64,000 nucleotides of DNA from Bacteroidetes bacterium GWF2_35_48 (GTDB taxonomy: Bacteria > Bacteroidota > Bacteroidia > Bacteroidales > GWF2-35-48). Under the pieces are notes generated by a model. That model was not told the DNA's origin. It searched no databases and saw only the letters and a program-made list of their open reading frames with translations. This document shows, piece by piece, positions 14,963 to 24,400 of the stretch. Made by a program: the position numbers and the translations under genes. The DNA lies in the NCBI GenBank assembly GCA_001769125.1, contig MEOG01000100.1, forward strand, positions 62,001-126,000. Reading direction: 5' to 3'. Position 1 is the first letter of the stretch; every line of letters starts with the position of its first letter.

Positions 14963-16111
14963 TCAGCAGCCAATATATCTTGAAATTACCAATCTTTGAA
15001 TTTCGGAAGTTCCTTCGCCAATTTGAAGCAATCGCTGATCTCTGTATAATCTTTCAATATCATAATCTTTCATCAGACCGTAACCACCATGAATCTGAAC
15101 AGCTTCATCGGCAACTTCTTTGGCAACTTCAGAACAATATAATTTTGACATTGCAGCTTCTTTAGCAAAAGGTTTATCGTGATCTTTCAGCCAACATGCT
15201 TTATACAAAAGGTTTCTGGCTAATTCGATTTTAAGAGCCATATCAGAGAGCTTAAAAGCAACAACCTGTTGTTTGCTTATTGGCTTTCCAAACTGAATCC
15301 GATCCTGAGCATACTGCATTGCCAGCTCAAAAGCACCTTGTGCCAGACCGAGCCCCATCGCTGCAATAGAAAGCCTTCCACAATCTAAAGTACTTAACAT
15401 AATTTTTGATCCCTCGCCTCTTTTTCCCAGTACATTACTTTCAGGAATTTTGCAATCATCAAAATAAAGTTCCGCTGTATTAGAAGCGCGCCACATAAGT
15501 TTGTCGTGCATTGTTTTTGCAATAAAACCAGGGGTTCCGTTTTCAACAATAATAGCGGTAAATTCTTTTTCCTTGCCATCATCACCTGAAACAGTTTGAA
15601 TTGTAGACCCTATGGTAATTTCTGAAGATGCATTTGTAATAAAGATTTTGGAGCCATTGATAATCCAATTTCCATCTTCAAGTTTAGCAACGGTTTTTGA
15701 ATTTCTTGAGTCAGAGCCTGCATTGGGTTCAGTAAGACCAAAACCCCATAATTTTTTTCCGGTACAAAGAATAGGCAGATATTTTCTTTTCTGCTCTTCA
15801 TTGCCAAAATAATAAATCGGGTTCATGCCGAGAGAGTTCCCGGCAGCAACAGTAGCAGCCTGCGAACTGTCAATCCGGGCCAATTCTTCAACTGCAATAA
15901 TATAAGAAAGGTAATCCATACCTTGTCCTCCGTAGTCTGGTGACACAACAAGTCCAAACAGACCGATTTCTCCCATTTTGTGTGTTAATTCTACGGAAAA
16001 TTGCTGTTTATCGTCGAGTTCTTTAGCTATAGGCTTAATTTCTCTTTCTGCAAAATCTCTTACAGATTCTCTGATAAGCTGATGTTGTTCGTTTAATAAG
16101 GGATGATACAT
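14963..16111 (-). CDS. Acyl-CoA dehydrogenase
   Basis: A 382-residue FAD-dependent acyl-CoA dehydrogenase, the last gene of the leucine-type operon. Visible motifs are WGFGLTEPNAGSDSRN (~122-137), NGSKIFITNASSE (~151-163), DRIQFGKPISKQQVVAFKL, QIHGGYGLMKDYDIERLYRDQ and the C-terminal QIGEGTSEIQ. The Glu of that last motif (~366) is the catalytic base in short/medium-chain and butyryl-CoA types. Isovaleryl-CoA dehydrogenases usually have Gly or Ala there and take the base from elsewhere. Context argues for isovaleryl-CoA as substrate, but the residue pattern argues for a more general short-chain enzyme, so I leave the substrate open. An electron-transfer flavoprotein is not encoded nearby. Confidence 0.92.
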   Translation of the reverse strand: MYHPLLNEQHQLIRESVRDFAEREIKPIAKELDDKQQFSVELTHKMGEIGLFGLVVSPDYGGQGMDYLSYIIAVEELARIDSSQAATVAAGNSLGMNPIYYFGNEEQKRKYLPILCTGKKLWGFGLTEPNAGSDSRNSKTVAKLEDGNWIINGSKIFITNASSEITIGSTIQTVSGDDGKEKEFTAIIVENGTPGFIAKTMHDKLMWRASNTAELYFDDCKIPESNVLGKRGEGSKIMLSTLDCGRLSIAAMGLGLAQGAFELAMQYAQDRIQFGKPISKQQVVAFKLSDMALKIELARNLLYKACWLKDHDKPFAKEAAMSKLYCSEVAKEVADEAVQIHGGYGLMKDYDIERLYRDQRLLQIGEGTSEIQRLVISRYIGC

Positions 16112-16198
16112 AATTTATTTAATTTAAGTTATTACATGAGTATTACTTTCTGATTGTTGAGTTTAAGCATCACGAAACGCCTGCAAAACAATCCGTTA

Positions 16199-17209
16199 TT
16201 ATTTTTTCCCACTAAGAGATTTAGGAATTCTGCCGTTTTTGATAGATTCAGAGCGAAGTCTGCGTCCTGTGATTCTTTCGACCATATTTCCTATTTCCAG
16301 AATTTTATCAATATTAAGACCTGTGTCAATTCCCATTTCATCCATCATTACTACCATATCTTCTGTAGAAACCAATCCTACAATATTCGGATCTTTATAA
16401 TAATAAGAACCAGTACCGGAAACAGGAACTCCGCTTACAAAATTAGCCGGCTGACCGCCAATACCACCCATTGTTGATTCATAATTTGTCATACCGGCAT
16501 TCAGAGCTGCTAAAACATTAGCAAGCCCCCATCCTCTTGTTGTATGAAAATGAACAATGTGTTTTTCAGGTGTTGGAATTGCATCAAGGAGCATGGAAAA
16601 ATAATCATACACTCTGTCGGGAGAAGCAGAACCATCGTGGTCGGCATGTTCAACATCGCTGGCGCCAATATCAAACCATCTTTTTGTAAACTCAATTGCC
16701 TTTTTCATTTCTGTCGGGCCTTCAAGAGGACAACCCCAGATTGTACTAACCGTACCATTGACTTTAATTCCGGCATCACGAGCATCTTTAATGCACTTTT
16801 CACTCATTTTCCAATACTCTTCCAAAGAAAGTCCTGAATTTTTTTTATGATGCGACTCGCTGGTAGAAACCATCAGTAAAATTCTGTCAGGACCAAAACC
16901 TTCTTTTTTAGCTTGTATTGCTCTTTCTACTGCTTTTTCACGTATTGTAACTGAGGTAATGCAAACATCATTAATCAGGTGCGCTATTTTCTTGCTGTTT
17001 CTTACTCTTTTCATCAGTTCGTCTGCATCTTTAAACTGTGGCATTCCGCTGGGATTCCCGAAATTTGTGGTTTCAATATGTTTAAATCCGGCAAGTATAA
17101 GCTGCTCTGCAAGCCATACTTTGGCATCGGTTGGGATAAAGAGTTCTTCGTGCTGAAATCCGTCTCTGACAGTTATATCTCCAATTGTAACTTTTTTCGG
17201 ATAATTCAT
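16199..17209 (-). CDS. DRE-TIM lyase related to HMG-CoA lyase, no catalytic Cys loop
   Basis: A 336-residue TIM-barrel protein of the HMG-CoA lyase/LeuA-like superfamily. The N-terminal motif GDITVRDGFQHEE carries the metal-binding Asp and Arg, and the metal-binding HFHTTRGWGLAN is at ~219-230. In genuine HMG-CoA lyases a loop GGCPxAxGASGN supplies a catalytic Cys. Here the aligned loop reads MGGIGGQPANFVSG with no Cys. The same operon already encodes a canonical HMG-CoA lyase (18662-19549), so this paralog probably acts on a different substrate or in another step. It lies between the acyl-CoA dehydrogenase and scoB genes. Superfamily is certain, reaction unknown. Confidence 0.82.
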   Translation of the reverse strand: MNYPKKVTIGDITVRDGFQHEELFIPTDAKVWLAEQLILAGFKHIETTNFGNPSGMPQFKDADELMKRVRNSKKIAHLINDVCITSVTIREKAVERAIQAKKEGFGPDRILLMVSTSESHHKKNSGLSLEEYWKMSEKCIKDARDAGIKVNGTVSTIWGCPLEGPTEMKKAIEFTKRWFDIGASDVEHADHDGSASPDRVYDYFSMLLDAIPTPEKHIVHFHTTRGWGLANVLAALNAGMTNYESTMGGIGGQPANFVSGVPVSGTGSYYYKDPNIVGLVSTEDMVVMMDEMGIDTGLNIDKILEIGNMVERITGRRLRSESIKNGRIPKSLSGKK

Positions 17210-17261
17210 AATTATATAGATTTAGTTAGTATTACAAATATAAAATTTTGCGCCGGTTTTT

Positions 17262-17921
17262 TTAAGAAAATTTCATTTCAGGAATATCCCCTTCAATAAC
17301 AAGCACGCCTTCGGTGGCTTTTTTAATTTCCTCAACAGATACACCCGGAGCGCGCTCTATAAGCTTAAAGCCATCAGATGTAACATCTACTACTGCAAGC
17401 TCTGTTACAATTCTCTTAACGCATTTAACGCCGGTAAGGGGAAGGGTGCATTTTTTCAGCAGTTTGGATTTTCCTTCCTTGTCTGTATGCTGCATGGCAA
17501 CAATGATGTACTTTGCAGCAGCCACAAGATCCATGGCTCCTCCCATTCCTTTAACAAGTTTTCCCGGAACTTTCCAGCTTGCAATATCGCCGGTTTCTGA
17601 TACTTCAAAAGCGCCTAATACAGTAAGGTCTACATGACCGCCGCGTATCATTGCAAAGCTTGTTGCCGAATCGAAAAATGCTGCGCCGGGGGTGGCTGTT
17701 ACGGTTTGCTTGCCCGCGTTAATTAAATCTGCATCCACATTTTCTTTTGTCGGAAAAGGACCGATACCAAGCAAGCCATTTTCTGATTGCAGAATTACCT
17801 GCATGCCTTGCGGAATATAATTTGCAACAAGAGTCGGAATTCCAATTCCGAGATTAACGTAATAACCGTCTTTTAATTCCTGCGCAATTCTTTTTACTAT
17901 GCCTATTTTATCTAATGCCAT
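17262..17921 (-). CDS. scoB: 3-oxoacid CoA-transferase, subunit B
   Basis: The beta subunit of a succinyl-CoA:acetoacetate-type CoA-transferase, which activates acetoacetate to acetoacetyl-CoA. The catalytic Glu is in the motif QSENGLLG (~45-52), and [21 protein letters not shown] and [10 protein letters not shown] are typical of the subunit. I chose the ATG at 17921 (MALDKIG) because it matches family N-termini. A GTG 14 codons upstream overlaps the stop of the A subunit and would add an unrelated basic stretch. It is 219 residues long, as expected. It sits after scoA and next to HMG-CoA lyase, the source of acetoacetate in leucine breakdown. Confidence 0.92.
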
Positions 17922-17955
17922 AAGATTCTTTTTTGGGGTTAAATACAATATTTTT

Positions 17956-18648
17956 TTAATCACGTGTTGTTACAAATTCAATTTTCTTCTGATAGTTTAC
18001 ACCCTGAAAAATTCGTTGAACATAGATCCCGGGAGTGTGTATCTGATTCGGATCAAGAGCCCCTGCGGGAACAAGTTCTTCAACTTCTGCAATGGTAATT
18101 TTTCCTGCGCTTGCCATCATATTGTTAAAATTATTTGCCGTATTTCTGTAAATAAGGTTTCCGTATTCGTCGCCTTTCCATGCTTTTACTATGGCGAAAT
18201 CGGCTGTGATTCCCATTTCCAGCAAGTGCATTTTTCCGTTATACTCGCGAACTTCTTTGTTCCCCTGTACTTCGGTACCGTATCCGGCTGGTACAAAAAA
18301 AGCGGGAATACCGGCACCGCCAGCGCGAATTCTCTCTGCCAGTGTGCCCTGAGGAATCAGTTCCACCTCTAATTCACCTGCCAGCAACTGCCTTTCAAAT
18401 TCTTTGTTTTCTCCGACATAGGAAGCTATCATTTTTTTCATCTGGTGTTTTTGCAACAAAAGACCAAGCCCCCAGCCATCAATTCCAGCATTATTTGAAT
18501 AGCAGGTCAGACCTTTTATGCCCGCATCATAAATTGCCTGTATACAATTTTCAGGAATTCCGCATAATCCAAAACCACCAAATAATACCGACATATTGTC
18601 TGTCAGTCCTCGTATTGCTTCAACTGCATTTTTTACTACTTTTTGCAT
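17956..18648 (-). CDS. scoA: 3-oxoacid CoA-transferase, subunit A
   Basis: The alpha subunit that pairs with the downstream B subunit. The 230-residue protein shows the CoA-binding glycine motif [17 protein letters not shown] (~20-36) and [14 protein letters not shown]. It also shows [25 protein letters not shown] (as adjacent blocks) and [19 protein letters not shown]. Length and order match SCOT/ScoA. Its stop at 17956 lies 34 bp before the B-subunit ATG. With HMG-CoA lyase directly upstream, the likely reaction is acetoacetate plus succinyl-CoA giving acetoacetyl-CoA plus succinate, though butyrate/acetoacetate exchange cannot be excluded. Confidence 0.93.
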
Positions 18649-18661
18649 AATTTCTGTTTGA

Positions 18662-19549
18662 TTAATTATTGATTTTATCTTTAATTTGATGAGAATAAAA
18701 TTCAGAGAAAATGCCTCTGTTGGCTTTTACAGCCAGATCCAGCATATCTTTATTTATTTTGTTGCTGATTTTATTTGTGGCGCAATAATTATGAAACGCA
18801 ATAGTATCAAGATTATTCAGCAACTCATAGCCGGTCATGGGGCAACCTCCCATTCCGCTTAAAACCGTATCAAAACTTCTGCATCCAGCTTTGTAAGCAG
18901 CATCTGTTTTTTCATAAGCTGTATTTTTGCTCGTGTGTAAATGCAATCCGATTTCTATTTCCTTAAATTCTTTTACGAGCTCATACACATCTGAAATCAG
19001 CTTTGGGTTTGATTCTCCTGTAATATCAGAAAGAGTAATATGCCCGATTCCCACTTTTGAAAGAATAGAAACTTGTTCGGCAACCATTTCTGTATGATAC
19101 GGATCGCTGTATGGATTCCCAAATGCCATTGTCAGATATACCCTCAGCTTTTTTTTATTGATTTCGCACAAATTATTTATTTGTTCTACCATTATCAAAC
19201 TTTCTTCCGGTGCGCAATTGATATTCTTTTTTAAAAAAACGGGAGAAAGAGAATAAGGAAATGCAATCCAATTTATTTCCGGAAACGTCATCGCTTTTTC
19301 AGCTCCTTTAGCATTTGCAACTAAAACCATTATTTTGGTTTCAGTATTTTCGAGCCTGAGTTTTTTTAATACTTCTCCCGTATCTTTTAATTGCGGAATT
19401 GCTTTTTCTGAAACAAAACTTCCTGCATCAATAATATCAAAGCCAACTTTCAGAAGTTGGTTGATATAGGATGCTTTTATTTCGGCAGGAATATAAGCGG
19501 GCAATCCCTGTATTGCGTCTCTCGGGCTTTCGGTAATAGTAAGGCTCAT
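18662..19549 (-). CDS. Hydroxymethylglutaryl-CoA lyase
   Basis: HMG-CoA lyase splits 3-hydroxy-3-methylglutaryl-CoA into acetoacetate and acetyl-CoA. The 295-residue product starts [16 protein letters not shown], which has the conserved Arg-Asp metal/catalytic pair. It contains [12 protein letters not shown], the metal-binding HLHTSK and the catalytic Cys loop [13 protein letters not shown] chose the ATG at 19549; a TTG five codons upstream overlaps the preceding gene and extends beyond the conserved start. It follows the carboxyltransferase-biotin gene by 7 bp and precedes scoA, consistent with a linear pathway operon. Unlike its paralog at 16.2 kb, all key residues are present. Confidence 0.93.
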
Positions 19550-19556
19550 GAATTTA

Positions 19557-21740
19557 TTATGCAATATCTTCCAGTTCCACTAAAAGAAAATTTCCAGTTA
19601 CCATCTGATTCAGGTTGACATGAATTTTTTTAACAACAGAATCTTTTTTTGCTACCAGATTGTTTTCCATTTTCATGGCATCAACAACAATAACAACATC
19701 GCCCTTTTTCACCTTGTCGCCTTCTTTAACATTTAATTTGAAAATTTTTCCGGGAATAGGAGAATACAAATTATTTGCTGCAGCAGAAACAATTCCGGTT
19801 TCACTATCTTCTAAATCTGATTTTTCAAAAAGCATGTCGTTTCTGCTCATCAGAAACTCCTGCCCATTGATAAGGACTTTGAACGAACCGTCTTTTTCTG
19901 CGCTTACTGATGCAAACAATTTTTTCCCGTTCACGCTGATGTCAATTTCTCCCTCGTTAAGATATTCTATTTTTGCATTAATTATTTCGCCACCAATTTG
20001 TATTTCGTAATTACCATTTTTTGAACACGCGTAAGAAATTTCAATATCTTTTGAATTGTAACGGACAACAACATTCAATATATTTCTCCAGAAACCAATT
20101 GTATTCCATACATTATTTTCAGGATTGGAATGTTCAATAACCGATTTGGGTTTATAATTGAGAGAATACAATAAGAAAGCGGCAATTGCTTCGCTTTCAT
20201 TTGCTTTTTCCTTAGGATAAGCACTTCTATTCGGGCTTTGTTTTTCTTTCATTTTAAAGAATGATTTTTTTTCTGAATTTTGATTTTTTGCATTTTCAAT
20301 TTCTTCTTCAAACCGGGTTTTTGCAGCACCGGATTTGTAGTCTCTGTATTGGGCTTCGTGCATGGCAAATTCGAAAAGTTCTTCATTGTCCCGACCGAAA
20401 TCCCAATTATTTTCGATCATTTCTTTTCTGTATTTTTCAAGAACATCGGGATAAGCATCCTGAGGTACGCCTGTATAAAATTCTTTACCGGAATTTTTGG
20501 CAAGGGCTATTATTTCAGGTGCAAGTGTACCGGGCAAGGTGCCTGATTTTCCGAGAATCATATCCCATGTGTTGTTGTCCATCATAGAATAGCGTTCTTC
20601 GCCTTTAACAAGTTGCAGAATATTCAGAAGCGCTACATTTTTCACATACTGGCTGAAGGGTGTAACCAGAGGCGGATATCCCAATTTCGGCCATATAAAT
20701 TTTACTTCGTCAAATAATTTCACAAGCAGGTCGTCTTCGCTTAATTCATGCTCTCCGTTTGCAACAAGAACAGAATTAATAACATTGTGAACCCCTTTGA
20801 GGTCTGCCATAAGGCTTCCCATCATTCCGCCGGGCAAACCTGAACCAATAAGAAGAGAAGATACAAAGCGATTTTTCGGGTCAATAAAATATCCGAGAAA
20901 ATCATCAATAAAAGATTGCGTAAGGGCTCTTGCCTCCATGTACGCGTTCATGTTGATTTCGGGAACAAGAAATCCTTCATCTTTAAGCATTTCCTGAATA
21001 GTAATAACATCAGGATGCACCATTCCCCATGACAGAGGCTCCATGGCAACATCCAGATAATCGGCTCCCGCGCGTGCAACTTCCATCATAGAAGAAACAG
21101 AAAATCCGGGACCTGAGTGTCCATGGTACTGAACAATTGTTTTCGGATATTTTTCTTTGATAGCGCGAACCAATTTCCCGAGCGTAGCAGGTCTGCCTAC
21201 ACCTGCCATATCTTTCAGGCAAATTTCATCAGCGCCGTATTCTATTGCTTTATCAACAACGCTCATGAAATATGGCACCGTGTGTACTTCAGAATGAGTA
21301 ATGCTCAAAGCAGCCTGAGAAATCATTCCCGCTTCCTTAGCATATTTTATTGACAACTCAAGATTCCGATGATCATTCAAACCGCAGAAGGAACGGGCAA
21401 TATCTACTCCCTGCGCTTTTTTTACTTTGTACATAAGTTTGCGAACATCAGCAGGAACAGGAAACATTCGGATTCCGTTCAGAGCTCTTTCGAGCATGTG
21501 GGTCTGAATTCCCGCTTCATTAAAGGGTTTTGTCCATTCACGTACTGCCGTATTCGGATTTTCTCCGTACAAAAGGTTTACCTGTTCAAAAGCCCCTCCA
21601 TTGGTTTCAATTCTCGAGAAACAGCCCATCTCCACGATGACAGGAGCAATTTTTTTCAACTGGTCTACACGTGGAACATATTTTCCAGAAGATTGCCACA
21701 TGTCTCGATATATAAGGCTAAACTTTATTTCTTTTTTCAT
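19557..21740 (-). CDS. Carboxyltransferase-BT-biotinyl fusion, transcarboxylase 5S/1.3S-like
   Basis: A 727-residue protein. Residues ~1-470 resemble the TIM-barrel carboxyltransferase of pyruvate carboxylase, oxaloacetate decarboxylase alpha and transcarboxylase 5S. The expected metal ligands are present: Asp13 (YRDMWQSSG), Lys176 (CLKDMAG, normally carbamylated), His206 and His208 (QYHGHSG). Residues ~540-640 (GFWRNILNVV, then YEIQIGGEI, INGQEF) look like the BT domain that docks biotin subunits onto acyl-CoA carboxylase beta subunits. The C-terminus is a biotinyl domain with VVDAMKMENNL (Lys690). No biotin carboxylase is present here or elsewhere in the window. It may move CO2 from an oxo-acid to biotin and on to the neighbouring MCC-beta subunit. 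The RDMWQ and RALNG motifs differ from the usual RDAHQ and RGxN, so the donor need not be pyruvate or oxaloacetate. Confidence 0.85.
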   Translation of the reverse strand: MKKEIKFSLIYRDMWQSSGKYVPRVDQLKKIAPVIVEMGCFSRIETNGGAFEQVNLLYGENPNTAVREWTKPFNEAGIQTHMLERALNGIRMFPVPADVRKLMYKVKKAQGVDIARSFCGLNDHRNLELSIKYAKEAGMISQAALSITHSEVHTVPYFMSVVDKAIEYGADEICLKDMAGVGRPATLGKLVRAIKEKYPKTIVQYHGHSGPGFSVSSMMEVARAGADYLDVAMEPLSWGMVHPDVITIQEMLKDEGFLVPEINMNAYMEARALTQSFIDDFLGYFIDPKNRFVSSLLIGSGLPGGMMGSLMADLKGVHNVINSVLVANGEHELSEDDLLVKLFDEVKFIWPKLGYPPLVTPFSQYVKNVALLNILQLVKGEERYSMMDNNTWDMILGKSGTLPGTLAPEIIALAKNSGKEFYTGVPQDAYPDVLEKYRKEMIENNWDFGRDNEELFEFAMHEAQYRDYKSGAAKTRFEEEIENAKNQNSEKKSFFKMKEKQSPNRSAYPKEKANESEAIAAFLLYSLNYKPKSVIEHSNPENNVWNTIGFWRNILNVVVRYNSKDIEISYACSKNGNYEIQIGGEIINAKIEYLNEGEIDISVNGKKLFASVSAEKDGSFKVLINGQEFLMSRNDMLFEKSDLEDSETGIVSAAANNLYSPIPGKIFKLNVKEGDKVKKGDVVIVVDAMKMENNLVAKKDSVVKKIHVNLNQMVTGNFLLVELEDIA

Positions 21741-21837
21741 TTTTCATTACAAATTTTAAATTTATGACACTAATTTCACTAATTATCAAGTAATAATATT
21801 TGTGTAATTTGTGTCTACAGTAGCTATACAAATACGA

Positions 21838-22626
21838 TTAATTTACCCAATTTGGTTTTCTTTTTTCGAGGAAAGAGGCCATTCCTTCCTGACCTTCTTT
21901 TGATGCCCTCATCTCTGCAATCGTACGCGCTGTGTAATCTATAGAGTCTTCAAAAGATAATTTATTGGAAATCGTATAAATTAACTTTTTGCAAGCAGAC
22001 ATTGCTTCCGGGCCGCTGGTCATTAATCCTTCAATTACGGATGCAACATAAGAATCGAGTTCTTCAATGGGAAGCGATTTATTTGCCAGTCTGTACCATT
22101 CGGCTTCTTTTCCGGTAAATCTTCTTCCGCTGATCATGAGTTCTCTTGAACCATATTCGCCGATTCTTTTCATAACATAGGGAGAAATCGTAGCGGGAAC
22201 AATACCCAGTTTTACTTCGCTGAACGCAAATTTTGTATCGTCGGCGCAGTACACAAAATCACAGGCAGCAAGAAGACCGTTTGCCCCGCCGATTGCAGCA
22301 CCCTGAACAATGGCGATGCTGGGTTTCCGGCACGTGTAGATTGCATTAAAACATTTCGCCAATTTCAGACTGTCCTGATAATTTTCTTCAAAACCAAAGT
22401 TTGCGATTCCCTTCATGTAGTTCAGGTCAGCGCCTGCACAAAACGATTTTCCTTTGCCGCGCAGCACTACAATTCTGACATCCTGTTCTTCATTCATGCT
22501 TTCAACGCAATCTATCAAATCTGCTATTAATTGTTGATTCATGGCATTATGCAGGTCAGGTCTGTTCATCCAGATAGTGCCAACATAATTTTTTATTTCT
22601 ATTTCAAGTGTTTCGTATATTTTCAT
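21838..22626 (-). CDS. Enoyl-CoA hydratase, probable methylglutaconyl-CoA hydratase
   Basis: A 262-residue crotonase-fold protein. The oxyanion-hole motifs are GKSFCAGADLNYMK (~60-73) and VQGAAIGGANGLLAACD (~108-124), and the catalytic-acid region is FAFSEVKLGIVPATISPYVM. The CAGADLNYM form and the position between the methylcrotonyl-CoA carboxylase beta subunit and HMG-CoA lyase point to hydration of 3-methylglutaconyl-CoA to HMG-CoA (the LiuC role). A generic enoyl-CoA hydratase remains possible on sequence alone. Codon use matches the rest of the operon. It follows the 125-bp palindrome at 22666-22790 in transcription order. Confidence 0.88.
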   Translation of the reverse strand: MKIYETLEIEIKNYVGTIWMNRPDLHNAMNQQLIADLIDCVESMNEEQDVRIVVLRGKGKSFCAGADLNYMKGIANFGFEENYQDSLKLAKCFNAIYTCRKPSIAIVQGAAIGGANGLLAACDFVYCADDTKFAFSEVKLGIVPATISPYVMKRIGEYGSRELMISGRRFTGKEAEWYRLANKSLPIEELDSYVASVIEGLMTSGPEAMSACKKLIYTISNKLSFEDSIDYTARTIAEMRASKEGQEGMASFLEKRKPNWVN

Positions 22627-22665
22627 ATATTTTTTCCCATTAATTTAATGTCTGCCAGAAAATTC

Positions 22666-22790
22666 AGTGTCAGATAAGAAAACGTCAAATTCAAGACTTT
22701 CGAAGACCTGAAAATAAAGAGTGTACTAAAGTACATGACTGTTTTTCAGGTCGAGAGTAACGCGGAAATTGGCGTTTTCTTGCTGACACT
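22666..22790. repeat. 125-bp near-continuous palindrome inside the operon
   Basis: The outer ends AGTGTCAG (22666-22673) and CTGACACT (22783-22790) begin a stem that continues through AGAAAACG/CGTTTTCT, CAAATT/AAATTGG and GACCTGAAAA/TTTTCAGGTC. It ends at TGTACT-aa-AGTACA in the middle. It starts two bases past the MCC-beta stop codon. It has the form of a small mobile palindrome, and in the mRNA would be a long duplex and candidate RNase III site. No clear target duplication was seen. Confidence 0.75.
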
Positions 22791-22792
22791 AT

Positions 22793-24400
22793 TTACATTC
22801 TGAATACGCCGTCCTGCTTGTCCGGAAACATATTATTTAAAGAAGCGGCGATTCCCATTGCAAGTACTTTTCGTGTGTCAACGGGGTCAATGATGCCGTC
22901 GTCCCATAAACGGGCTGTACTGTAGTAAGCCGATCCTTCAAAATCATATTTATCAATAATACTTTTTCTCATTTTTTCGACATCAGCTTCGGGCATTTCT
23001 TTTCCCTCTGCCCTCAACTGGTCTTGCTTGACAGTAATCAGAACTGTTGCGGCCTGCATTCCACCCATCACAGAAATTTTGCTGTTCGGCCACATAAACA
23101 TTAATCTCGGGCTGAAAGCTCTTCCTGCCATTCCATAGTTTCCTGCGCCAAAAGAGCCGCCAAATATTACGGTAAATTTCGGAACATTCGCATTGGCAAC
23201 TGCGTGAACCATTTTGGCTCCGTCTTTTGCCATTCCTTTTCTTTCGTATTCTTTTCCTACAATAAATCCGGTAATGTTCTGGAGAAAAATCAGGGGAATT
23301 TTCCGCGATGTGCAAAGTTCGATAAAGTGCGTACCTTTCAGAGCCGATTCTGAAAAAAGAACTCCGTTGTTGGCAAGAATACCTACGGGGAAGCCCATAA
23401 TCCGGGCAAAACCTGTTATAAGAGTAGAACCGTAATTTTCTTTAAACTCATGAAATTTGCTACCATCAACCATTCGCATGATGATTTCTCTGGGGTCGAG
23501 CATTTTTCTGAAATCAAGAGGCGCAATTCCATATAATTCTTCAGGGTCGTAGAAAGGTTCTTCAATAGGGGCAATGTCCAAGAGTTGCTTTGGTTTTTTA
23601 TCCATAGACTGAAAAATGTTTCTGCAAATCTGAATGGCATGCAGATCGTTTTCAGCGATGTGGTCGGCAACTCCCGATATGGATGTGTGTACTTCGGCGC
23701 CTCCGAGTTCTTCGGGAGTAACAATTTCGCCTGTTGCTCCTTTAACAAGCGGGGGACCTCCTAAGAAAATTGTTCCCTGATTTCTGATGATAATGGTTTC
23801 ATCGCTCATTGCGGGAACATACGCGCCACCGGCAGTACAAGAGCCCATAACTATTGCAATCTGGGGGATTCCCATTGACGACATTCTCGCCTGATTGTAA
23901 AAAAATCTGCCGAAATGGTCTTTATCTGGAAATACCTTATCCTGCTCGGGCAAAAAAGCGCCCCCGGAATCAACCAGATAAACACAGGGCAAATGATTTT
24001 CCATTGCTATTTCCTGTGCGCGCAAATGCTTTTTGATGGTGTATTGCATGTATGTTCCGCCTTTCACGGTAGCATCGTTTGCAATAATTACGACCTCTCT
24101 GCCGTGTATCAATCCGATACCTGTTGCAATACCTGCTGACGGAAATCCGTTTTCATACAGATTGTATGATGCAAGGGAAGATAATTCCAGAAAGGGAGTA
24201 TTCGGATCAATTAATTTATCAATTCGTTCTCTGGCAAGCAACTTACCGCGCTCTTTGTGTTTTTTTATTGCGCCGGGAGAGCCTCCTTTGGTAACGTCTT
24301 TGTGAATTTCTTTGTATTGATTTAATAATTTAAGAAATTCTTCCTTGTTCTTTTTGAACTCTTCGGAATTTGTGTCAATTTTTGATTGAAGCCTGTACAC
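22793..24400 (-). CDS. Acyl-CoA carboxylase beta subunit, methylcrotonyl-CoA type
   Basis: A 535-residue carboxyltransferase subunit. It follows methylcrotonyl/geranyl-CoA carboxylase beta subunits closely. It has ATVKGGTYMQYTIKKHLRAQ (~112-131), DSGGAFLPEQDKVFPDKDHFG (~146-166), GIPQIAIVMGSCTAGGAYVP (~178-197) and GGPPLVKGATGE. The C-terminal half has FLQNITGFIVG, FGGSFGAGNYGMAGRAF and PNSKISVMGG. It would carboxylate 3-methylcrotonyl-CoA to 3-methylglutaconyl-CoA using carboxybiotin. It is the first gene of a seven- to eight-gene minus-strand operon. The usual alpha subunit (biotin carboxylase plus biotin carrier) is absent; the only biotin carrier in the operon is the 727-residue fusion two genes downstream. 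Confidence 0.93.
   Translation of the reverse strand: MYRLQSKIDTNSEEFKKNKEEFLKLLNQYKEIHKDVTKGGSPGAIKKHKERGKLLARERIDKLIDPNTPFLELSSLASYNLYENGFPSAGIATGIGLIHGREVVIIANDATVKGGTYMQYTIKKHLRAQEIAMENHLPCVYLVDSGGAFLPEQDKVFPDKDHFGRFFYNQARMSSMGIPQIAIVMGSCTAGGAYVPAMSDETIIIRNQGTIFLGGPPLVKGATGEIVTPEELGGAEVHTSISGVADHIAENDLHAIQICRNIFQSMDKKPKQLLDIAPIEEPFYDPEELYGIAPLDFRKMLDPREIIMRMVDGSKFHEFKENYGSTLITGFARIMGFPVGILANNGVLFSESALKGTHFIELCTSRKIPLIFLQNITGFIVGKEYERKGMAKDGAKMVHAVANANVPKFTVIFGGSFGAGNYGMAGRAFSPRLMFMWPNSKISVMGGMQAATVLITVKQDQLRAEGKEMPEADVEKMRKSIIDKYDFEGSAYYSTARLWDDGIIDPVDTRKVLAMGIAASLNNMFPDKQDGVFRM

Follow-up and report, generated by a model that had tools for sequence, protein, structure and literature searches.

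A probable ATP-independent 3-methylcrotonyl-CoA carboxytransferase in a leucine-degradation operon of Bacteroidales

How can 3-methylcrotonyl-CoA be carboxylated by an operon of the leucine-degradation type that encodes a carboxyltransferase and a biotin carrier and holds no biotin carboxylase? The question is raised by a locus of Bacteroidetes bacterium GWF2_35_48, which was analyzed in a stretch of 64,000 nucleotides (the window; its source is called the window genome, G000). The sequence-only reading of this DNA had proposed that a transcarboxylase stands here in place of the ATP-dependent methylcrotonyl-CoA carboxylase (MCC), and the evidence summarized below supports that proposal on sequence grounds, through an exchange of genes in one operon slot and through docking and biotinyl domains of the MCC-alpha kind.

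Gene content of the operon

The operon consists of eight genes, all on the minus strand, from 24400 to 14963, and they were found at the coordinates which that reading had given. The products matched the families Carboxyl_trans, ECH_1, PYC_OADA plus Biotin_lipoyl, HMGL-like (two proteins), CoA_trans (A and B) and acyl-CoA dehydrogenase, and are arranged as follows.

22793..24400, minus strand: MCC-beta carboxyltransferase, 535 aa (PF01039, E 1.4e-148), the expected acceptor site for 3-methylcrotonyl-CoA
21838..22626, minus strand: enoyl-CoA hydratase (ECH) family protein, 262 aa (ECH_1, E 9.8e-52)
19557..21740, minus strand: FUS, a chimeric carboxyltransferase-BT-biotinyl protein, 727 aa (domain matches, alignments and models)
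18662..19564, minus strand: HMG-CoA lyase-like protein 1, 300 aa (GGCP cysteine kept)
17956..18648, minus strand: 3-oxoacid CoA-transferase subunit A, 230 aa (TIGR02429, 239.6 bits, cut-off 128.5)
17262..17963, minus strand: 3-oxoacid CoA-transferase subunit B, 233 aa (TIGR02428, 329 bits, cut-off 243.55)
16199..17209, minus strand: HMG-CoA lyase-like protein 2, 336 aa (Gln replaces the GGCP cysteine of the lyase)
14963..16111, minus strand: acyl-CoA dehydrogenase, 382 aa (family match)

Compared with solved structures, the first gene product matched human MCC-beta at E 1e-210, Pseudomonas MCC-beta at 1.5e-205 and Propionibacterium 12S at 1e-75. An identity as PCC-beta or 12S was rejected on these values (1e-205 or better for MCC-beta versus 1e-75 for 12S). 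Its best structure match is 9tps, which is labelled PCC-beta, and the sister entry 9tqc, with an identical chain, is titled MCC.

All gene families of liu-type leucine degradation (acyl-CoA dehydrogenase, MCC, methylglutaconyl-CoA hydratase and HMG-CoA lyase) are represented, the specificities of the dehydrogenase and the hydratase being assigned from context. Thus, the ECH protein, whose gene lies between MCCB and either FUS or, in relatives, MCC-alpha, is probably methylglutaconyl-CoA hydratase, and the dehydrogenase is, from context only, probably an isovaleryl-CoA dehydrogenase; among named solved structures, short-chain types outscored isovaleryl-CoA dehydrogenases in matching it. Both HMG-CoA lyase-like proteins score below the PRK05692 cut-off. 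The second of them, a gene that the sequence-only reading had not listed, is of uncertain function and is unexplained by the transcarboxylase model.

Composition of the FUS protein

As had been claimed, domain matches show the operon to lack a biotin carboxylase and its biotinyl domain to be fused to a PYC_OADA-type carboxyltransferase; FUS itself carries no biotin carboxylase domain in this search. Three parts were delimited, the central one being an addition to the earlier reading.

20283..21740, minus strand: FUS residues 1-486, 5S/PycB/OadA-type carboxyltransferase domain (catalytic residues kept; fold comparison)
19833..20201, minus strand: FUS residues 514-636, MCC-alpha-type BT (docking) domain with W545 (sequence and fold match)
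19560..19775, minus strand: FUS residues 656-727, biotinyl domain, AMKMEN with Lys690, codon 19671-19673 (PF00364, E 1.1e-14)

Judged by alignment, FUS residues 504-727 are the BT and biotinyl domains of MCC-alpha. The segment 501-727 matched the C-terminus of MCC-alpha starting just past the biotin carboxylase domain (35% identity at E 1.8e-37 for the best of 27), while the best competing matches were an ACC BCCP at 5.8e-18 and 1.3S at 3e-11. With the biotinyl part taken out, the BT regions of 28/28 FUS proteins still matched the MCC-alpha BT, with E values of 3e-10 to 5e-34 for the best hits, and hhalign aligned the two BT domains at 99.9% (E 1.6e-31). In a model of FUS 501-727, residues 514-636 (model residues 14-136) superposed on the human MCC-alpha BT domain in 8j99 with a Z of 12.8 and an rmsd of 2.9 over 117 aligned residues, a fold that is not independent of MCC-alpha because the input alignment included MCC-alpha rows. 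The motif W545-x2-IG-x-WR was invariant in 16 FUS rows and also in a joint alignment of 6 FUS and 6 MCC-alpha rows, and K690, the MKM lysine and predicted biotinylation site, was likewise invariant in the 16 rows.

In the carboxyltransferase domain, R12, D13, Q16, R85, N88, K176, H206, H208 and T360 were invariant across 16 aligned rows, and we take K176, H206, H208, R12, D13, Q16, R85 and T360 to be the 5S/PC-type active-site residues, with the metal/carbamyl-Lys site. The modelled domain came nearest in fold to 5S (1rqb/1s3h), at a Z of 32.2 that OadA and PC equalled and with 24% identity to 5S in the structural alignment; across the FUS subfamily, identity to the characterised 5S, OadA and PycB proteins is only ~20-30%. 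Confidence in the two FUS models is moderate, with a pLDDT of 73 for the first, which is low at residues 85-92, and of 77 for the second. Compared with the window's FUS, relatives show 76-86% identity in the carboxyltransferase part and 33-61% in the remainder. Since its active-site residues are kept and it is better conserved than the rest, this domain does not look like a relic. In a tree, the FUS carboxyltransferase domains formed one group (29 rows, SH-aLRT 91) nested in Bacteroidota 5S-like proteins.

Biotin carboxylases and the MCC-alpha slot

The window genome, a draft assembly of 142 contigs, is 98.14% complete. Its search with TIGR00514 yielded two weak matches only (best E 4.7e-4) and no biotin carboxylase. 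Three matches to PF02786 (best E 7.9e-9) all lay above that domain's low cut-off, and each was rejected as a biotin carboxylase, being a D-Ala-D-Ala ligase, a cyanophycin-synthetase-like protein and another ATP-grasp ligase. No biotin carboxylase was therefore found in this genome and hence no MCC-alpha, the outcome of the genome-wide search that the sequence-only reading had suggested. OadB/MmdB (OAD_beta) was not found there either. The genome does hold a biotin protein ligase, a 12S-like gene elsewhere, and a 5S-like short form (G000:C24) that adjoins 12S-like and 1.3S-like genes. Its carB also seems to be missing.

Among 393 sampled genomes of the order, the fused protein was present in 32: 28 copies are full length, three are split at contig ends and one, in G070, is without ~28 residues of the carboxyltransferase barrel. 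ECH lies immediately upstream of FUS in 24/27 other loci read. The fused form is thus not a product of chance, given this recurrence and this neighbour. The gene order is MCCB-ECH-FUS in 23 of the 27 other FUS loci and MCCB-ECH-MCCA in 26 of the 34 loci read from relatives without FUS. FUS occupies the operon slot that MCC-alpha holds in relatives, as the proposed comparison of gene order revealed, and a search of all 32 FUS genomes found MCC-alpha in none.

No biotin carboxylase was found in 5/32 FUS genomes versus 0/128 MCCB genomes without FUS. The five are the window genome, G147 and G034 (one genus), G013, and G286, which is 91% complete and whose congener G201 has the enzyme. In G013 (99% complete), the biotinyl-type matches were FUS and a 461-aa E2-like frame only, so that FUS is the one biotin carrier found there, and MCCB was the sole carboxyltransferase found. 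The other 27 FUS genomes each hold one biotin carboxylase gene, unbroken and above the family cut-off in 26 and in two pieces with stops in G152; with G152 excluded, at least two such genes occurred in 0/31 FUS genomes versus 111/128 MCCB genomes without FUS. The MCCB tree separates the partners of FUS and of MCC-alpha imperfectly: four f101 genomes without FUS fall within the FUS half, two of which (G285 and G101) have an MCC-alpha at a distance of a few kb, and the same half contains, on a long branch, G138 and G282, for which no partner was seen.

Proposed reaction, alternatives and known systems

Taken on its sequences, the operon likely encodes a leucine-degradation route with a biotin-dependent 3-methylcrotonyl-CoA carboxytransferase, in which FUS would dock on MCC-beta and CO2 would pass from a keto acid without ATP. 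Transfer, not ATP, probably drives the carboxylation, because the ATP-using part appears to be replaced by a domain of the type that draws CO2 from a keto acid such as oxaloacetate. FUS would have arisen when the biotin carboxylase domain of an MCC-alpha was swapped for a 5S-like carboxyltransferase domain, with the BT and biotinyl domains retained. The BT domain would dock on the MCC-beta core in the MCC-alpha fashion; the carboxyltransferase may then move CO2 from a keto acid, most likely oxaloacetate (leaving pyruvate), to the biotin on Lys690; and the charged biotin would swing into the MCC-beta active site, where CO2 would be passed to 3-methylcrotonyl-CoA to give 3-methylglutaconyl-CoA with no ATP used. 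Hydratase, HMG-CoA lyase and CoA-transferase would complete the pathway.

A separate AccC-type biotin carboxylase encoded elsewhere in the genome could instead charge FUS, in which case ATP would still be spent at this step and the 5S-like domain would contribute a second activity, that of a pyruvate carboxylase. A genomic partner of this kind had been named as evidence that would count against a transcarboxylase; none was found in the window genome, and 27 of the 32 FUS genomes keep one gene (26 above the cut-off) that could in principle serve. The enzyme was, however, found in none of the five genomes listed above, it lies on a different contig from FUS in 27/27 carriers, and in 6/6 clusters read it belongs to its own AccC-BCCP-CT set. 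Moreover, FUS is without the exact domain that MCC-alpha uses, and we regard such charging as quite unlikely. It is also unlikely that the enzyme runs in reverse, decarboxylating 3-methylglutaconyl-CoA to 3-methylcrotonyl-CoA while pyruvate takes up the CO2, and so supplying a fermenting cell with isovaleryl-CoA for branched lipids or with isovalerate. Transcarboxylases are reversible and the short-chain preference of the dehydrogenase matches fits this direction, but HMG-CoA lyase with 3-oxoacid CoA-transferase is a catabolic set, and relatives have MCC-alpha in the FUS slot.

A reading of FUS as a standard pyruvate carboxylase subunit B or oxaloacetate decarboxylase alpha, placed in the operon by accident, seems very improbable. 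A PYC_OADA domain is present and the former is the top NCBIfam model (PRK09282), yet the scores fall far under the curated cut-offs (283.8 bits of 402, and 257 of 756.5 for oadA), neither PycA nor OadB was found in the window genome, and the FUS C-terminus is of the MCC-alpha BT type. We give hardly any credence to a normal MCC whose biotin carboxylase is simply absent from the assembly: the genome is a draft of many contigs in which carB seems missing too, but FUS sits in the MCC-alpha position and MCC-alpha was found in none of the 32 FUS genomes.

If the proposed carboxytransferase is correct, it would be the first transcarboxylase for 3-methylcrotonyl-CoA as far as our literature searches, which found no description of one, can tell. 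It would represent a natural conversion of an ATP-dependent into an ATP-free carboxylase by exchange of the biotin-charging domain only, with the docking domain kept, and would suggest leucine degradation in these Bacteroidales without ATP cost at the carboxylation step. A modularity rule for biotin enzymes, that charging and docking are separable, would become testable, and synthetic biology could use FUS as a template for carboxylases that save ATP. Across the order, no biotin carboxylase was detected in 130/326 good genomes, which raises the wider question of their malonyl-CoA source. It is possible, and we suggest it tentatively, that biotin carboxylation in these bacteria proceeds without any biotin carboxylase, with keto acids such as oxaloacetate as the CO2 currency through the 5S-like family and FUS as a natural one-step conversion by charging-domain exchange; in genomes with FabD and no acetyl-CoA carboxylase, even the malonyl-CoA for fatty-acid synthesis may come from transfer of this sort, by 5S-like, 12S-like and 1.3S-like proteins or by a lone carboxyltransferase that has a small carrier of its own.

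Among the closest known systems, the Bacteroidota 5S-like short forms (mostly ~580-640 aa; Prevotella, Hoylesella, Paludibacter and G000:C24) show ~60-80% identity to FUS over the carboxyltransferase domain. Unlike FUS, they show no BT domain, and their C-terminal biotinyl-like domain is mostly without the MKM lysine, in a test that did not count the lysine kept by L112, L120, L124, L139 and L146, which read EAMKV. With pyruvate carboxylase subunit B and oxaloacetate decarboxylase alpha, FUS shares the carboxyltransferase fold, the catalytic residues and a C-terminal biotinyl domain; it differs in its MCC-alpha-type central domain, in its neighbour MCC-beta and in that no biotin carboxylase subunit or OadB was found. 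The likeness to the Propionibacterium methylmalonyl-CoA carboxytransferase (12S, 5S, 1.3S) drawn by the sequence-only reading stands for the 5S-type domain, the MKM-lysine carrier and a PF01039 acyl-CoA carboxyltransferase; a biotin carboxylase was found neither in the window genome nor in four further FUS genomes, and one is present in the other 27. The likeness fails for the acyl-CoA subunit, which is MCC-beta and not 12S, with 3-methylcrotonyl-CoA as the expected acceptor; in addition, the 5S-like and carrier parts form a single chain here, bearing an MCC-alpha-type BT domain that probably docks. With MCC (EC 6.4.1.4), the system shares the beta subunit, the BT and biotinyl domains and the operon setting, and it differs in that FUS has a 5S-like carboxyltransferase domain where the MCC alpha subunit has its biotin carboxylase domain.

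Operon and domain architecture of the fusion

The operon lies in the window (G000:C100:62001-126000) of a 5.98-Mb draft genome, G000, which comprises 142 contigs and is 98.14% complete. It encodes the beta subunit of 3-methylcrotonyl-CoA carboxylase (MCC) and FUS, a 727-aa fusion of a 5S-like carboxyltransferase with an MCC-alpha-type BT domain and a biotinyl domain, and the main reading is that these two would form an ATP-free 3-methylcrotonyl-CoA transcarboxylase.

Genes of the window operon in transcription order (family matches, with E values for MCC-beta)
24400-22793, minus strand: MCC-beta, first in transcription order (human MCC-beta, E 1e-210; Pseudomonas, 1.5e-205; Propionibacterium 12S, 1e-75)
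22626-21838, minus strand: enoyl-CoA hydratase family protein (ECH)
21740-19557, minus strand: FUS, 727 aa
19564-18662, minus strand: HMG-lyase-like protein 1
18648-17956, minus strand: 3-oxoacid CoA-transferase A
17963-17262, minus strand: 3-oxoacid CoA-transferase B
17209-16199, minus strand: HMG-lyase-like protein 2
16111-14963, minus strand: acyl-CoA dehydrogenase

In HMG-lyase-like protein 2 (16199-17209), GGQP replaces the GGCP of HMG-CoA lyase; its copies share 76-89% identity between the loci in which they were seen, and it is present in MCC-alpha operons too (L198, L206, L210).

FUS residues 1-486 form a carboxyltransferase domain of the 5S/PycB/OadA family, whose nearest solved relatives by sequence were PycB (5ks8, E 1e-42) and 5S (E 3e-36), and whose nearest fold was 5S (1rqb/1s3h, Z 32.2), tied with OadA (2nx9, 31.8) and PycB (5ks8, 31.8). 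We take the metal- and keto-acid-binding residues of 5S and pyruvate carboxylase to be the Arg, Asp and Gln of RDxxQ, the LLRG Arg, the carbamyl-Lys, HxH and the LVTP Thr. Their counterparts in FUS are R12, D13, Q16, R85, K176, H206, H208 and T360, all invariant in 16 aligned FUS rows. The LLRG Arg of 5S was paired with E84 in a plain HMMER alignment and, via a gap, with R85 in a profile alignment, which also paired the Asn with N88; the R85/N88 pairing was adopted over E84, in a region where the whole-chain model is weak (pLDDT <50 at 85-92). Relatives are 76-86% identical to the window FUS in the carboxyltransferase part and 33-61% in the C-terminal part, and this stronger conservation argues, at the sequence level, for a working carboxyltransferase domain.

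Residues 504-727 differ from the usual PycB tail and match the MCC-alpha C-terminus, starting directly after the biotin carboxylase domain; the best match among 27 MCC-alpha proteins was 35% identical over 225 columns (E 1.8e-37). Three divergent MCC-alpha proteins (L188, L190, L196) were matched by the window FUS over the biotinyl domain only, and matches to acetyl-CoA carboxylase BCCPs took in the biotinyl domain and also some of the BT barrel. With the biotinyl domain removed, the match to MCC-alpha persisted in 28/28 FUS proteins (best hits E 3e-10 to 5e-34), and a profile comparison of this remainder with MCC-alpha gave 99.9%. In a model of the C-terminal part (pLDDT 77), whose alignment included MCC-alpha rows, residues 514-636 superposed on the BT domain of human MCC-alpha (8j99) with Z 12.8 and rmsd 2.9 over 117 residues. 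A whole-chain model built from FUS rows alone placed one helix (515-528) and eight strands (556-633) in this region, which is the BT layout given for geranyl-CoA carboxylase in PMC4673880. The same paper describes a BT hook, lying between the helix and strand 1 of the BT domain, that touches the beta subunit via a mostly conserved Trp buried there. In our models, W545 sits in the corresponding loop of FUS. It is invariant in the 16 FUS rows and in a chosen set of 12 (6/28 FUS and 6/27 MCC-alpha, excluding the most divergent MCC-alpha proteins, L188, L190, L196 and L207). Alignments of FUS to solved MCC chains did not settle which residue matches W545, and we infer from the models that it may be the equivalent of the hook Trp. 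Judged from its sequence, FUS is a domain swap, in which the MCC-alpha-like docking and carrier parts appear to have been kept and the charging part exchanged.

The MCC-alpha slot across genomes

In a sample of 393 genomes from one order, probably Bacteroidales, MCC-beta was found in 160 (E <= 1e-150) and FUS in 32, being full length in 28 and split by contig ends in G179, G201 and G286; the copy in G070 is missing ~28 barrel residues, which counts against the transcarboxylase reading. Among the 31 other FUS genomes, the FUS locus was read in all but G187, G201, G286 and G179, giving 27 loci. In 24 of these 27 the gene immediately upstream of FUS is ECH, and the order MCCB-ECH-FUS holds in 23, the exceptions being L069, L072, L082 and L038, the last on a contig that begins at ECH; gaps of ~0.6-1.2 kb separate MCCB and ECH in L063, L067, L081 and L086. 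Among the 128 MCCB genomes without FUS, 34 loci were read, hand-picked across families with long contigs and hence non-random, and 26 of them showed MCCB-ECH-MCCA, in which MCC-alpha is 638-737 aa long. MCC-alpha lies some kb off in L217 and L219, and none was seen within the stretch read at the other six (L194, L199, L202, L208, L213, L216); for L199 it was found just past the stretch (L228). At L208 (genome G282) and L202 (G138), MCCB-ECH-acyl-CoA dehydrogenase stands beside genes that by eye resemble the mevalonate pathway, with neither MCC-alpha nor FUS in the stretch read.

A phylum search with the BT-biotinyl part in a thin sample of 395 genomes returned only the window's genome and one weak match (a 689-aa frame, 33%). 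Among the matches listed in a scan of genome contigs were a full-length fusion (L106), two cut by contig ends (L123, L143), short forms (Bacteroidota 5S-like proteins) and distant PycB/OadA-type relatives.

A tree built from 80 carboxyltransferase domains grouped the 29 FUS rows together (SH-aLRT 91, below the 95 mark), nested inside the Bacteroidota short forms, and for 28 FUS rows the BT-biotinyl parts too formed one group (support 90). A branch with support 100 divided the MCCB tree by partner, FUS or MCC-alpha; the f101 genomes are the exception. These fall on the FUS side, two with MCC-alpha a few kb away (G285, G101) and two with none within the stretch read (G200, G348); f101 raises the number of partner-label changes from 1 to 2, in a count that left out 8/63 rows without a partner gene in the stretch. 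The left-out rows include L225 (G098, with FUS on another contig) and L220 (G180, FUS not found). The FUS side further includes G138 and G282, placed on a long branch, with no partner seen in the stretch. These sequences would be most simply explained if FUS had arisen once, when a short-form gene recombined with an MCC-alpha gene.

Biotin carboxylase and alternative partners

No biotin carboxylase was found in G000 in whole-genome searches with an accC model and PF02786. The accC model gave two weak matches (best E 4.7e-4, C20:23732, a 434-aa frame), and the three PF02786 matches, all above the domain cut-off, were rejected as a D-Ala-D-Ala ligase, a cyanophycin-synthetase-like protein and another ATP-grasp ligase. 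A whole-genome search also returned neither a carB-like match of usual strength nor a strong CPSase-domain match, unlike in the congener G001, which has a 1077-aa frame of CPSase-domain type. carB thus seems absent from G000, by draft gap or real loss; genes may therefore be missing from the draft, and the case rests on the genome set. An assembly gap was rejected as the main explanation for the missing biotin carboxylase, since many genomes have FUS in the place of MCC-alpha, and MCC-alpha was found in 0/32 FUS genomes.

Counted at E <= 1e-70, biotin carboxylase numbered 0 in 5 of the 32 FUS genomes and 1 in 26, with G152 having a single broken gene in two pieces, and 0 in none, 1 in 17, 2 in 98 and 3 in 13 of the 128 MCCB genomes without FUS; as the genomes are related, Fisher values on these counts are not independent tests. 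At the same threshold, none was found in 130 of the 326 order genomes with completeness of 90% or more and contamination no higher than 5%. The retention of one such gene in 27/32 FUS carriers counts against the transcarboxylase reading. The 26 single copies have frames of 503-539 aa, and are thus AccC-like, not MCC-alpha. In all 27 carriers the gene is on a different contig from FUS; its absence beside FUS rests on these contig places, the loci having been compared with operon proteins only. Its own BCCP and carboxyltransferase accompanied it in 6/6 clusters read. In G152, the closest relative having this operon, accC (C172, L221 476-4178) is in two overlapping frames with stops, next to stop-free BCCP and carboxyltransferase frames, and is either a broken gene or an assembly error. 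The sharpest case is G013 (99% complete, 700 contigs), where MCCB was the sole carboxyltransferase found, whole-genome searches found no biotin carboxylase and no OAD_beta, and the biotinyl-type matches were FUS and a 461-aa E2-like frame only.

A Na+-pump decarboxylase with an OadB/MmdB partner was likewise rejected: OAD_beta was not found in five of the ten FUS carriers tested (G000, G013, G286, G076, G152), and, present in the other five, it adjoins 12S-like and 1.3S-like genes, not FUS, in the one cluster read (L224).

G000 has a biotin protein ligase and three PF01039 carboxyltransferases, on C24 (12S-like), on C50 and in the operon (MCC-beta). Its better-scoring biotinyl-type matches were FUS, the C24 1.3S-like carrier, the C50 carrier (~110 aa) and the C24 short form; the remaining three were weak. 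A second set with the transcarboxylase part list lies on C24 (L088 8783-12954).

Proteins of the C24 set
5S-like, 589 aa (short form; C-terminal biotinyl-like domain without the MKM lysine)
12S-like carboxyltransferase, 519 aa
1.3S-like carrier, 143 aa

Downstream of it (L088 14959-18999) is a 1347-aa open frame, by eye presumably Cas9-like. On C50 (L222 8240-10200), a small biotinyl carrier (~106-110 aa) follows a lone acyl-CoA carboxyltransferase of 514 aa, with no biotin carboxylase seen in the stretch. FabD is present in G000, where no acetyl-CoA carboxylase parts that could supply malonyl-CoA were found.

Proposed reaction and comparison with known systems

Under the transcarboxylase reading, a keto acid and 3-methylcrotonyl-CoA would yield the decarboxylated keto acid and 3-methylglutaconyl-CoA, with no ATP. 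Oxaloacetate would be the likeliest donor, because the pyruvate/oxaloacetate-holding residues are kept, and the direction is suggested by the catabolic gene set of the operon. We know of no assay of a FUS-MCCB transcarboxylase, and titles and abstract openings in the open-licence PMC literature searched held no description of a 3-methylcrotonyl-CoA transcarboxylase. The FUS system would work like the Propionibacterium transcarboxylase but is a different enzyme: its acceptor subunit is MCC-beta, and a single chain, FUS, combines the roles of 5S and 1.3S and also carries an MCC-type BT domain. In contrast to MCC, FUS is without a biotin carboxylase domain, and hence the system is not MCC.
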